Positions 1,065 through 40,378 of a DNA stretch of 64,000 bases are shown piece by piece. The DNA comes from Desulfogranum japonicum DSM 18378. Its GTDB lineage: Bacteria; Desulfobacterota; Desulfobulbia; Desulfobulbales; Desulfobulbaceae. The notes below the pieces were generated by a model. The model was not told the origin of the DNA. It searched no databases and worked only from the letters and a program-made list of their open reading frames with translations. The first letter of the stretch is position 1; every line of letters starts with the position of its first letter. The position numbers and the translations under genes are program-made. The DNA is taken from NCBI RefSeq assembly GCF_000429945.1, contig NZ_KE386995.1, forward strand, positions 63,238 to 127,237, written 5' to 3'.

Positions 1065-1231
1065 TTAAGGGTCGCGGAAAATAATACATATCCAAAAAAA
1101 CGTAAGATATCGGTTTGATAACGTCGTCGCGTCAATGGTTCCATACTGGCCCTATTGAGCCCTTGGCACGACGACCTTACCAAATTGAGAGACAAGTAAG
1201 ATTGGATAATTTATTTTTTCCGTGTCTCTAG
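1065..1231 (+). repeat. Repeat A, copy 1 (MITE-like inverted repeat, ~167 bp)
   Basis: Begins TTAAGGGTCGCGGAAAA and ends with a near reverse complement (TTTTTTCCGTGTCTCTAG). About 31 bp at each end pair imperfectly, and an inner pair (around 1112-1138 and 1162-1185) pairs again. Closely similar copies lie at 33131-33298 (opposite strand) and 38753-38919. No coding capacity. Confidence 0.85.
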
Positions 1232-1611: not shown

Positions 1612-1627
1612 AGTAAGATTTGGAGTG

Positions 1628-1785
1628 ACTGCTTACAGTGCCCCTGATCCTTCCGCGACCAGACTGGTTTATGTATGGGACAATACATTACGCCAGCCTG
1701 CTGGCGAAAACCTCAGGTACCCTGAAAGCAGTTACAAATACAGGAAGGGTTCCAGATGTAGTCACTTACACTATGGGGAGTTACG
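1628..1785 (-). repeat. Repeat B, copy 1
   Basis: Read on the minus strand it starts CGTAACTCCCCATAG and ends CTGTAAGCAGT. In between it matches copies at 30897-31049 and 39541-39695, including GGTACCTGAGGTT and CTGGTCGCGGAA. The ends carry a short terminal inverted repeat best seen in copy 2. Confidence 0.8.
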
Positions 1786-30623: not shown

Positions 30624-31100
30624 ATGTATTTCACCGTTACCAGCATCCACTATCGTACGATCAGGCTTTACTCCTTGACCAGCTATGGCGAGAAGACCGG
30701 GTTGAACGAACCTGGAATACTGGATAAACGGTTACAGTTATCGGATTGTGCCTGTTTTTTTCATAGTCCTATGAACAGTTACGAATATAATTAGGTAGTC
30801 GGATAGCACAGGGAAAGGTATAATTTTTCATTTATATCTTTTTTTCCGTCCATTAGTCGCAAGTGCGGCGAATGCCGTATAGGGACGGTTTGTAATCGTA
30901 ACTACTCACAGAGGAGACGGATAAGTTTGAAAGTCTCCCTTCTTTGTAACTGATTACAGCGTACTTGAGGTTATGGCAGGCTGGTGCAGCGTATCGGATT
31001 ATACCTGAGCCTGCCTGGTCGCGGAAAAATCAGGCGCGCTGTGAGCAGTTTTTTTAATCAATAGTAGACATGGCCAGGAGCCATGTGGAGGAAAGTGGAC
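30624..31100. other. 477 bp gap between mutL and hisD
   Basis: Contains a long-range dyad (CCGTCC 30846-30851 / GGACGG 30883-30888) directly followed by repeat B copy 2. No gene, RNA or clear promoter seen. Confidence 0.6.
30897..31049 (+). repeat. Repeat B, copy 2
   Basis: Best-preserved copy. Terminal inverted repeat ACTACTCACAG (30901-30911) / CTGTGAGCAGT (31039-31049), one mismatch. Aligned end to end with the copy at 39541-39695, sharing ATCAGGCGCGCTGTGAGCAG at the right end. It ends 50 bp before hisD. Confidence 0.85.
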
Positions 31101-33048: not shown

Positions 33049-34566
<1,518 letters not shown>

Positions 34567-36744: not shown

Positions 36745-36788
36745 CTAGGAGTCTGTCGGAAAAGTGCTTTCTCCGAAAGACTCTTAGG
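36745..36788. terminator. D-type hairpin between convergent genes
   Basis: CTAGGAGTCTGTCGGAAAAG faces CTTTCTCCGAAAGACTCTTAG across two bases: a near-continuous stem of about 20 bp. It overlaps the stop codon of the minus-strand GGDEF gene, so it probably terminates or stabilises that message and the asd message. Confidence 0.65.
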
Positions 36789-38484
36789 GTTTAGGCCCTT
36801 TCATGTAGCTGATATATCTGTTTTTTCCATCCTGTTTGGCTTGAAACATCGCCTGGTCTGCCTGCCTGATTAGCTGATCTGCCATGGTGCCATCCGAGGG
36901 AAAAATTGAAATTCCTATGCTGACACTTACCTCCACTGACAGTTGCAGTTCCTGCATTCGCTGTTGCAGTGTATAACATATTTTGTCAGCAACACTTGTG
37001 GCATCTTCCTCCCATTTCATGGCAGGCAGCGCGATAACAAACTCATCTCCTCCCCAACGACATATAAGGTCCGAGTCACGCAGGCAATGAACCAAGGTCA
37101 GGCTGACAACTCTTAAAACCTGATCTCCCATTTCATGGCCGAATTGGTCGTTGACATTTTTAAAGTTATCCAGATCCAGAAACAGAATGCCGACAAGAGC
37201 GTTTTCCCGCTTCGCCCGCCGAAAACACTGCTCAAGGAGATTGTGGAATAAATGCCGGTTGGGTAACCCTGTAAGGCAGTCATGATGTGCCAGGTGTTCC
37301 AGTTCCTGGCGTATATCCTGGAGGTCAGTGATATCGTGCAGAGAAATTACTGCACCAAGATTTTCTCCATGGTTGGTCTGCATGGGGCATCCGCTGGCTC
37401 GTAGAGATCTGCTGGTTCCATCTTCATTTATTAGCAGTATTTCCTGATTTCGTACGGTTTGTCCCTCAAGCGCACGATAAAGCGGAAGTTCTTTGGCGGT
37501 GAGCAGCCTCTTGGCATCAGGATGGAGTAGACGATAGTGATGGGCCCATTGCTCAAGTGGGATATTTTTTAGCGTACATCTATGCATTTCCTGGGCAGCC
37601 CGGTTGAACAGCGTCAGGTTCCCTGCAGCATCACAGGCAATAATACCATCTGTGATATTGTCCAGAACAGCTTCCTGTACTTTCTGCTGATACATTACCT
37701 CCTGCTCAGCCTGTTTGAGCAGACTGATATCTAAAAAATACCAGACTCTGCCAAGATATTTTCCCCCACTGCGAACAGGATAGGTGTGGCGGTAAAAGAC
37801 CCTTCCATCCTGCAGATAGATTTCATCTGTGCTGACAACATTGTGCTCACGGTACAGTCTCTGTACGGTTTCGAGAAACTCATCAGGTTTTTGTACCTGT
37901 TCGAGAATCAGCTGTAGACTCTCTTCATTATTTTTGTTCTGAACAATCTGTTCGGGTATGGACCACATTGTAAGAAATTGCCGGTTGAACGACAGCATTT
38001 CCATTTTTTCGTTTACCAGGAGTATACCCGCAGGGTTATGGTGGTACTGCGCTTGGAGAAGATGATATTCCCTGCAGCCGGTAAGGCATTCCATGGGGCG
38101 ATTTTCCTGCTGTAGCACAAGCAATATAACCTTGGTATGAGGTTGCGAAAGGCAAAGGTTAAGCATGGTACCGTTGGCAAGTTTGCTTACAAAGTCCAGT
38201 TCTTGAGTACTTTCAGAATCAGCATGTTGTCTGATATGGTTTTCTGCACTGAGGCGGTAGTCGTGGTGCAGATAGTCAGGGAAATAGCAGCTTAGTCCTG
38301 GTGAAAAATGAAGCAGAACAGCAGCCTGATTGTTGATGAGGCGAATATGCAGGTTCGGCTCAAGAATAAGAGCTGGAACAGGAAGAGTTTGCAGTAACTG
38401 TTCAGCCGAGAAGGGGAGAGGGTCATCTACAGCTTTTGTCTGATCGGGTTTCAGGGGCTTTGCAACTACACTGCTACGATCCAT
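36784..38484 (-). CDS. PAS-domain diguanylate cyclase
   Basis: 566 aa, no membrane segment. Three PAS-like regions (about 30-130, 140-260 and 270-395; the second ends with RVWYFLDISLLKQAEQE) precede a GGDEF domain at about 400-560. The active site RWGGDEF is intact, and an RxxD inhibitory site (RDSD) lies five residues before it, so it should make c-di-GMP under product feedback. HHDCLTGLPNR and LDLDNFKNVND mark the domain start. No phosphodiesterase domain. Signal sensed by the PAS domains unknown. Single gene with a 645 bp upstream gap. Confidence 0.92.
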   Translation of the reverse strand: MDRSSVVAKPLKPDQTKAVDDPLPFSAEQLLQTLPVPALILEPNLHIRLINNQAAVLLHFSPGLSCYFPDYLHHDYRLSAENHIRQHADSESTQELDFVSKLANGTMLNLCLSQPHTKVILLVLQQENRPMECLTGCREYHLLQAQYHHNPAGILLVNEKMEMLSFNRQFLTMWSIPEQIVQNKNNEESLQLILEQVQKPDEFLETVQRLYREHNVVSTDEIYLQDGRVFYRHTYPVRSGGKYLGRVWYFLDISLLKQAEQEVMYQQKVQEAVLDNITDGIIACDAAGNLTLFNRAAQEMHRCTLKNIPLEQWAHHYRLLHPDAKRLLTAKELPLYRALEGQTVRNQEILLINEDGTSRSLRASGCPMQTNHGENLGAVISLHDITDLQDIRQELEHLAHHDCLTGLPNRHLFHNLLEQCFRRAKRENALVGILFLDLDNFKNVNDQFGHEMGDQVLRVVSLTLVHCLRDSDLICRWGGDEFVIALPAMKWEEDATSVADKICYTLQQRMQELQLSVEVSVSIGISIFPSDGTMADQLIRQADQAMFQAKQDGKNRYISYMKGPKP

Positions 38485-38752
38485 AGTTTCTCTCCGGTGA
38501 TCCCATTATGGATGAGGTTCAGTGAAAAACAAGCTGTTTTTCCCATGCTATCATATTAAGGTAATTGTGTGAAGATTCATTCATAACCTAATATTCATAT
38601 GCGTTAATATGTGTACATTTTACGTAGTGGCTATTTGCCGATTGATCTGTTACTGGAAGGTTATACAGAAAAAGCAATAGAAAGGCATGTCGGGACAAAA
38701 GAAAATGTTCTTTATGAAAGTATGACTTACTGGTAAATACAAAGAAGCATTG

Positions 38753-38919
38753 TAGGGTCGCGGAAAATAATACATATCCAAAAATTGCGCAGGATATCGG
38801 TTTGGTAACGTCGTAGCTTCAATGGTCCCATACTGGCCGTATTGAGCCATTGACGCTACGGCGTTACCGAGTTGAGAGACAAGCAAGATTGGATACTTTA
38901 TTTTTTCCGTGTCCCTTAA
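38753..38919 (+). repeat. Repeat A, copy 3
   Basis: AGGGTCGCGGAAAATAATAC at the left, GTGTCCCTTAA at the right. The inner arms GGTAACGTCGTAGCTTCAAT and its imperfect complement (CATTGACGCTACGGCGTTACC region, 38848-38868) pair well. Same length as copies 1 and 2. Confidence 0.87.
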
Positions 38920-38952
38920 CAAAAGAATATGCAATGTAATTACCCCGAGTGC

Positions 38953-39092
38953 ATCTGCTCTGTAGTCATCTTGGCTTATGTATGATCCCATACGCTTACG
39001 CCAGCCTGCTTGCGCAAACTTCAAACACCCTATAATACGTTTTAATTACAGGGAAATTGTCAAGTCTAGCCGCTTCTCCTCTGGGTAGTTAC
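38953..39092 (-). repeat. Repeat B, copy 4 (diverged)
   Basis: Read on minus it begins GTAACTACCCAGAGGAG and continues GTTTGAAGTT..GCAGGCTGGCGTAA, matching copies 1 and 2; the far end is degraded. Its left end, with flanking bases, makes the dyad AGTTAC/GTAACT 37 bp before the next gene. Confidence 0.7.
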
Positions 39093-39129
39093 TCACGTAA
39101 CTATGTACACTATAAACAAAGAGTAGCCA

Positions 39130-39555
39130 ATGAGTCATGTCTTTACATACGGTTCTTTGATGTTCCCCCAGGTCTGGAATCGTGTGGTACAGGGAAGGTA
39201 CAATGCCCAACGGGTAGCATTGAGAGGTTTTGAGCGAAAATGTGTCAAAGGAGAAGAATATCCCGTCATTCATCCTGTTGATGATACCTGGTCGTTAGTA
39301 CAAGGGGTGCTGTATAGAGATGTTGGTGAAGAGGATTTACAGCGCCTGGATGTCTTTGAGGGCGAGTATTATCAACGGCAGACCAGGATGGTTATGTCAG
39401 AAGGTGGATATGTGGAGCCCGCGGAAGTATACGTGGTGCACGAGGATTTCACCCATATAATCGATCACAGGCCATGGGATGTGGAGCGTTTCAAGGAACA
39501 TGGGATACAAAAATTCTTGCAGCTGTATGTAGGATTTGAACGTAACAATTCATAG
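39130..39555 (+). CDS. Gamma-glutamylcyclotransferase/AIG2-like protein
   Basis: 141 aa, normal for the GGCT-like fold. It starts with the substrate-loop motif FTYGSLM (5-11), and the likely catalytic Glu is in LDVFEGEYY (about 76). Members release 5-oxoproline from gamma-glutamyl amines or dipeptides; the substrate is not deducible here. The last four codons and the stop lie inside repeat B copy 3, so the C-terminus was reshaped by the repeat or the repeat inserted at the gene end. Copies of repeat B in opposite orientation sit on both sides. Shine-Dalgarno weak. Confidence 0.85.
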   Translation: MSHVFTYGSLMFPQVWNRVVQGRYNAQRVALRGFERKCVKGEEYPVIHPVDDTWSLVQGVLYRDVGEEDLQRLDVFEGEYYQRQTRMVMSEGGYVEPAEVYVVHEDFTHIIDHRPWDVERFKEHGIQKFLQLYVGFERNNS

Positions 39556-39695
39556 GGGAGTCGGATCAGCTTGAAACTCCACAGTGAATTGGTTACAGGG
39601 TACCTGAAGTTATCACAAGCAGGTAGGTACAGCGTATTGGATTATTATAGGTAAGCCCGGTCGATCGTGGAAAGATCAGGCGCGCTGTGAGCAGC
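39541..39695 (+). repeat. Repeat B, copy 3
   Basis: CGTAACAATTCATAGGGGAG at the left, CTGTGAGCAG at the right, matching copy 2 along its whole length. It starts inside the cyclotransferase gene and ends 6 bp before the lolD stop, filling the whole space between the convergent genes. Confidence 0.85.
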
Positions 39696-39700
39696 TACTG

Positions 39701-40378
39701 TTAAACAAGATGACCACTCTCCAGGGTGAGCGTACGGTCAAGGGCCTGGGCCAATTCCATGTTGTGGGTTACCATCAGCACGGATAGGTCAAAGCTGTCT
39801 GAGAGTTCCTGGAGGAGTTCAAAAACCATCTGTCCACTGCCTGCATCCAGGTTACCGGTGGGTTCATCAGCCAGGAGTAATGCCGGCTGGAGGATGAGAG
39901 CCCTGGCCAGTGCTATGCGTTGCTGCTCTCCGCCAGAGAGTTCTCCACTTCGATGATCAGCCCTTTTTGCCAGTTGTATCCTTTGCAAAAGTTCCATTGC
40001 TCTATCTCTGAGAATCGCTTTATTCTGTCCCTGGATAAGCCCCGGCATCATGATATTTTCAAGCGCTGTGAATTCGGGCAAAAGGTGATGAAACTGGAAG
40101 ATGAAGCCGATGTTGCTGTTGCGATGTGCTGCCAGAGACGCCTCTGGTTGCTGATGGAGTTCCTGCCCTTTAAACAGTATACTTCCGTGATCTGCTGTAT
40201 CAAGGGTTCCCAGGATTTGCAGCAAAGTGGTTTTGCCTGACCCCGAAGCGCCGACAATGGCAACCATTTCACGTTTCAGAAGCGTGAGGTTTACTCCATT
40301 GAGTACCGTGATGATGTTGTCACCGTTGCGGTATGATTTAGAAACCTCTGTGGCCTGAAGGAGTGTGTTGCTATTCAT
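39701..40378 (-). CDS. lolD: Lipoprotein-releasing system ATP-binding protein LolD
   Basis: 225 aa ABC ATPase. It powers release of lipoproteins from the inner membrane to LolA. Walker A GASGSGKTTL (42-51), signature LSGGEQQRIALARAL, Walker B LLLADEPTGNLD, and the LolD-typical FQFHHLLPEFTALEN Q-loop segment. Overlaps lolC by 8 bp. Its stop is next to repeat B copy 3, where the lysS-lolC-lolD series ends. Confidence 0.94.
   Translation of the reverse strand: MNSNTLLQATEVSKSYRNGDNIITVLNGVNLTLLKREMVAIVGASGSGKTTLLQILGTLDTADHGSILFKGQELHQQPEASLAAHRNSNIGFIFQFHHLLPEFTALENIMMPGLIQGQNKAILRDRAMELLQRIQLAKRADHRSGELSGGEQQRIALARALILQPALLLADEPTGNLDAGSGQMVFELLQELSDSFDLSVLMVTHNMELAQALDRTLTLESGHLV

Follow-up and report, generated by a model that had tools for sequence, protein, structure and literature searches.

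We have analyzed a stretch of 64,000 nucleotides (hereafter the window) in which a small gene of the GGCT/AIG2-like type lies between a lolD-like gene and a PAS-GGDEF gene, with one copy of a short repeat, family B, at each side and, beyond the first of them, a copy of another repeat, family A (Table 1). The gene asd is found ~2.5 kb away from the GGCT gene. The layout that an earlier note had read from the sequence proved to be right in its essentials: there are exactly 37 bp between the end of the minus-strand copy B4 (39092) and the ATG of the gene (39130), the plus-strand copy B3 starts inside the fourth-last sense codon (39542) and the stop codon (TAG, 39553–39555) is within the repeat. 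The block is slightly wider than had been indicated (38936–39698 instead of 38953–39695). As for the GTAACT ends that were said to face the gene, the inner end of B4 reads GTAGTTAC on the plus strand, while B3 starts with GTAACA, an imperfect copy. At the inner end of B4 (39086–39107) a short inverted pair, AGTTAC-TCAC-GTAACT, was noticed by eye.

Table 1. Features of the locus and other repeat copies in the window.
Feature	Position	Strand	Description
Repeat A copy	1068–1229		
B copy	1625–1784	-	flanks TTCAAATC / TCCAAATC, 7/8 matching
B copy	30898–31053	+	flanks 3/8 as placed; a 1-base shift is needed for good pairing (by eye)
Repeat A copy	33130–33297		
PAS-GGDEF gene	36784–38484	-	other neighbor of the GGCT gene block
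Repeat A copy	38753–38920	+	168 bp, MITE-like; terminal inverted repeats AGGGTCGCGG.../...CCGTGTCCCT; 15 bp from B4
B4	38936–39092	-	decayed copy of MITE family B (~160 bp), with its left end (GTAACT) towards the GGCT gene; 74.1% to consensus
GGCT/AIG2-like gene	39130–39555	+	141 aa; PF06094
B3	39542–39698	+	decayed family B copy in the space where the GGCT gene and lolD converge; 77.3% identity with the consensus; flanks ATTTGAAC / TGTTAAAC, 5/8 matching
lolD-like ABC ATPase gene	39701–40378	-	stop codon 2 bp from B3

The product of the gene is gamma-glutamylcyclotransferase-like, as had been supposed. It matches the PF06094 profile over residues 4–117 with 62.2 bits (cut-off 22.8; E 8.7e-17), and its sequence is similar to those of AIG2-like proteins of solved structure (PDB 2jqv and 2g0q). 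Both a YGSLM and an FEGxYYxR motif are present, which would have a role in the putative cyclotransferase activity. The protein terminates in GFERNNS, and GFDR or a similar ending is found in several relatives. By this comparison of sequences it is complete, the homologous part being intact up to the GFER/GFDR-like end of several relatives, and only the last residues and the stop codon of the gene are supplied by B3. The gene itself is ordinary. Its codon use, which the earlier note had proposed to examine, was not decisive as a sign of foreign origin: the codon score was the lowest among the 31 ORFs of the window, yet it fell at the 6th percentile of background segments of the same length, i.e., within their range, and GC3 was mid-range.

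Repeat B is a transposable element, a hairpin MITE of ~160 bp with an 8-bp target duplication. The consensus, made by hand, has 160 bp and ends in GTAACT and AGTTAC; positions 50–160 form one long hairpin (predicted fold −77 kcal/mol, and −44 for B3) and positions 1–48 constitute an extra left part. Several matches begin near position 48–50 of the consensus, and a shorter form of ~112 bp probably exists. A first-look alignment comprised 29 genome loci (among them L030, which is the window copy B1) and the four window copies, with the minus-strand loci unturned. The duplication was scored in 43 full-length copies of this genome with distinct flanks, drawn from the best-scoring loci and from the regions with close pairs and hence not a random sample; B3 was among them and B4, whose right end is too worn, was left out. 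The 8-bp flanks of these copies agreed at 71.2% of the positions versus 31.0% (sd 2.5) in re-paired controls, and the next largest excess among lengths from 2 to 12 was 31.2% versus 26.0%, at length 10. The copies nearer to the consensus had better duplications (Spearman 0.43, p 0.004). The duplication and its better preservation in consensus-like copies identify B as a transposable element, so that the mobility attributed to the repeats from the start was well founded. Among the characters by which MITEs are recognized, B is short, has inverted terminal repeats, has no coding capacity (judged from its length) and duplicates a target of fixed length (8 bp, against the permutation control); ends in common with a transposase-bearing element were found at one side only (14/16). 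When the block or one young B copy was compared with known RNA families only matches below the gathering scores were obtained, and in the parts of the literature on bacterial MITEs and IS66 family ends available to us we found no description of repeat family B.

The family is abundant in this genome. A B pattern of 22 bases, allowing 3 mismatches, matched 129 times (70 on the forward and 59 on the reverse strand) and its reversed control never, confirming that the B repeats of the earlier note are real, and searches with the whole consensus returned 232 and 261 loose first-look candidates (40 and 3 of them scored). The family accounts for these dispersed repeats. At the level of the order, 44 of 242 genomes (this one included) had a B match at 1e-4, with 443 and 523 first-look candidates in two of them (G236 and G237, 3 scored in each). 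An exact 25-mer of the B core had 0 matches in a broader collection of genome contigs, but B was found when the order was searched with the entire consensus. The distribution was seen to be patchy (L018, L105, L106), with up to 91% identity in another family (G237), and it may reflect either transfer or parallel bursts. Within the genus, B had a single match in one of the six other genomes, some of them incomplete, and A had none. Repeat A is a MITE-like hairpin family of ~165 bp, with 264–271 first-look candidates in the genome, 40 of which were scored and are 90–100% identical. Its ends, inspected by eye, suggest a possible TA-type duplication.

A source of transposase for B may be sought in the IS66 family. 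There are four matches to the IS66 transposase profile (PF03050) over the cut-off in the genome, all fragmentary or with a stop, and TnpB (PF05717) was not found in it, which fits the single-ORF ISBst12 group. At two contig ends, C59 (L099, near 324–338) and C78 (L098, near 1340–1355), the same IS66 transposase end is followed, just past the stop codon, by a terminal repeat that reads inwards GTAACTGATCACAGGG and equals the right end of B at 14/16 positions; it was seen with two different outer flanks. These resident fragments, known from the last ~105 aa and one end, are a candidate parent of B, alike at the right end and seen from that one end. B is a non-autonomous hairpin with IS66/ISBst12-type ends, presumably mobilized in trans by an IS66-type transposase.

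We have compared the site with the corresponding regions of relatives. In G001 the prs-asd and lolD-lolC/E stretches are collinear with ours and the lolD-asd gap is ~250 bp, containing neither the GGDEF nor the GGCT gene. In G002, lolD and a GGDEF gene are ~345 bp apart without a GGCT gene, and in G006, where the lolC/E-side stretch is collinear, there was no GGCT match within the 20 kb examined around lolD. In 18 neighborhood loci of relatives, these three included, neither A nor B had a match. In the comparison of the lolD-GGDEF interval that the earlier note had suggested, both gene and repeats were missing in G001 and G002, and their absence from the collinear site indicates that the gene is accessory here. 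The absence of the repeats says little, since in the six other genomes of the genus B is matched once and A never. The relatives are also distant (lolD identity 62.9–69.6%; 68.0% for G001 and 62.9% for G002), so that the arrival of the gene cannot be dated.

Homologues of the GGCT protein were detected at 1e-10 in 83 of the 257 genomes of the class (own genome included), the strongest matches, 40–50% identical, being in families f12 and f4. The genome itself has a paralogue at C9:61853 that is only 33% identical. A copy of repeat A lies ~0.65 kb downstream of this other GGCT-like gene, just before the window (L064, 3907–4074). The gene proper was not found in the six other genomes of the genus, some of them incomplete; four had a relative with 29–33% identity and two had no match. 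In a tree of 38 rows, i.e., the gene and 37 fetched homologues including the paralogue (a sample that is not exhaustive), the gene fell into a group (support 96/94) with 16 rows from f12 and f4, separate from its own paralogue and from the rows of the genus. The phylogeny, which had also been proposed as a check, thus places the gene with other families of the same order, and transfer within the order is likely. A plasmid or phage origin was considered and discarded, as tblastn at 1e-5 matched none of 72,556 plasmid records and none of 50,697 phage records. In the broader collection of genome contigs 10 stretches matched a pattern for close relatives and 0 were confirmed.

The gene could instead be ancestral at this site and have been lost in the relatives, the MITEs being later arrivals of no relevance to it. 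That the nearest relatives belong to other families of the same order is compatible with this, as is the mid-range GC3, and in four genomes of one genus (g43; L072, L073, L075 and L079) a relative of the gene is found directly upstream of asd, a gene that is also close by in our genome. The order is nevertheless reversed (GGCT then asd in g43, asd then GGCT here) and in a wider stretch of three of these four genomes, on short contigs, no other gene of the GGDEF-lolD neighborhood was found. With four genomes of a single genus and the reversed order, we judged the case for a shared ancestral linkage to asd weak. The lack of the gene in the other genomes of the genus and its codon score, lowest in the window if within the background, also speak against ancestry, and several losses would be needed. 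We regard this explanation as unlikely.

Another alternative is that the B copies have been domesticated, B4 as a promoter or leader of the gene and B3, with convergent genes at its two sides, as a terminator hairpin. B3 does sit exactly between GGCT and lolD, and the predicted folds given above would suit such a role. Simple consensus scans of 38485–39720, however, revealed no promoter-like site on the strand of the gene and no terminator-like site, and both copies are decayed. A function of this kind for the repeats seems to us rather improbable.

The least probable of the explanations considered, and one to which we give very little credit, is a composite MITE transposon, in which the inverted B copies, with their right ends outermost, would have moved the GGCT gene into the lolD-GGDEF space as one unit of ~760 bp whose ends have since decayed. 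It is close to the two-ended mobile cassette imagined in the earlier note, a reading that the results did not sustain. The copies face each other in inverted orientation, gene and repeats are jointly absent in G001 and G002, as the insertion of a unit would also produce, and there are published precedents, as far as the sources describe them, in the MITEs around cargo of Acinetobacter (PMC6382973) and in a MITE-like composite with a resistance gene (PMC3189936). Against this, no target duplication was found outside both copies, which is weak evidence in copies as old as these. The outer flanks of the block agree at 4/8 positions, a value reached by 20% of the re-paired controls (5/8 once, with shifts of up to two bases), and the flanks of B3 itself match better. 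The identity between the two copies, 64.7%, is typical of the window, where the five other pairings give 62.7–71.8%. Nor was the unit seen elsewhere: the 5.8-Mb draft genome yielded a single gene of this kind, no second copy of it was found with B, and the 4.3 kb surrounding the paralogue (L064) contained no B match.

The other close pairs of B copies point in the same direction. The outer flanks of the eight pairs tested agree at 1–3 of 8 positions, none exceeding 3/8, while in four of them at least one copy has its own duplication of 7–8 of 8. A fifth, L053, has one of 8/8 if the end of the copy is placed one base differently, and for the remaining three the best own match was 5/8 (L060), 3/8 (L057) and 2/8 (L052), the ends being incomplete in two. 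These flanks favor separate insertions of B in general, something that in a pair as old as B3 and B4 is not provable. The flanks of B3 agree at 5/8 across the junction between the gene and lolD (the best of five pairings tried; 7.6% of re-paired controls reach 5). If they are a decayed duplication, the GGCT gene already adjoined lolD when B3 arrived. Those of B4 agree at 2/8, i.e., there is no target duplication, and its separate insertion is thus not demonstrated. An inversion of the gene segment between the B copies received no support either, the swapped flanks pairing at 1/8 and 4/8, and an integron gene cassette seems unlikely by eye, the copies being mutually inverted and without the attC core.

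We have also considered whether a gene boxed by B copies is in itself exceptional, using 100 of the 129 pattern matches. Pairs of neighboring copies within 3 kb of each other numbered 11 versus 5.0 expected under a uniform model. B copies may thus be linked beyond chance, though a preference for intergenic DNA could account for the excess of close pairs. There are three further facing pairs among these matches, 1.5–2.2 kb apart, which enclose an Abhydrolase-like gene, whose score falls just short of the Pfam cut-off, together with a glutaredoxin gene, an Nramp gene with an unassigned gene, and a pyridine-nucleotide-disulphide oxidoreductase gene; in two of the three, one or both copies are without the left part, so that the B4-B3 layout is not reproduced exactly. 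If copies fall only between genes, as in a toy model, the number of single genes expected to be boxed by a facing pair is 0.8 with 129 copies and 2.7 with 232, and under the uniform model the probability of at least one facing pair 300–800 bp apart is 0.30–0.68. Given these chance models and the ordinary genes within the other facing pairs, the boxed arrangement needs no special cause.

The explanation that we prefer, and consider well supported, is that an accessory GGCT gene arrived by transfer or relocation and that two B MITEs and one copy of repeat A were inserted around it independently. A lineage-specific gene of GGCT/AIG2-like type would have come between lolD and the GGDEF gene, and the three repeat copies would have entered, each on its own, the small intergenic spaces at either side of it. 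B3 would have inserted at the extreme 3' end of the gene, to which it now contributes just the terminal codons. The B copies and the accessory gene are both real and their co-occurrence is most likely ordinary, nothing found here showing that the B copies moved the gene. Were the composite transposon true after all, a pair of full MITEs without transposase would have served as the ends of a unit, and an IS66-type MITE family extending over a whole order could move accessory genes in trans. The example is instead a caution that genes flanked by MITEs should not be called cassettes without a test of the duplications. A useful further outcome is the hairpin MITE family itself, which has well-defined limits, ends of the IS66/ISBst12 type and a clear duplication of 8 bp, and is matched across many families of one order.

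Two kinds of described systems resemble the arrangement found here. In Acinetobacter, copies of a MITE surround cargo and in one described case the flanking copies are identical (PMC6382973), and a MITE-like composite that mobilized a resistance gene is cited in PMC3189936. Like in the Acinetobacter composites, two MITE copies stand here at either side of cargo, although B3 and B4 have diverged from each other and no convincing outer duplication was found. In ISPa75-fosZ and other tIS66, according to the available description (PMC12888890), the passenger gene is part of a single complete IS that also has its transposase genes. An IS66-type element, a single extra gene and ends that begin with GTAA are common to those and to our locus, where in contrast neither the B copies nor the DNA between them contain a transposase. 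As a repeat family, B is short, non-autonomous and bears terminal inverted repeats like MITEPsy1 (PMC3189936) and MITECca01, which is derived from IS982 and has 169 copies, mostly intergenic (PMC9769881); from what is described of them, these have other IS parents, and B has matches in many genomes of the order as well. There is also a close likeness to ISDge4 of Deinococcus geothermalis, a member of the ISBst12 group of the IS66 family for which a direct repeat of 8 bp is given, together with the terminal inverted repeats GTGACTACTCAGCA and GTAACTGCTCAGCA (PMC12898284). Unlike that element, B is without transposase, has ~160 bp and is mostly one long hairpin. Its consensus begins at the left with GTAACTACTCA and has GTAACTGCTCA at the right end, matching those repeats at 10 and 11 of 14 positions with the same A/G asymmetry, so that GT(A/G)ACTACTCA at the left, GTAACTGCTCA at the right and the 8-bp duplication are common to both.
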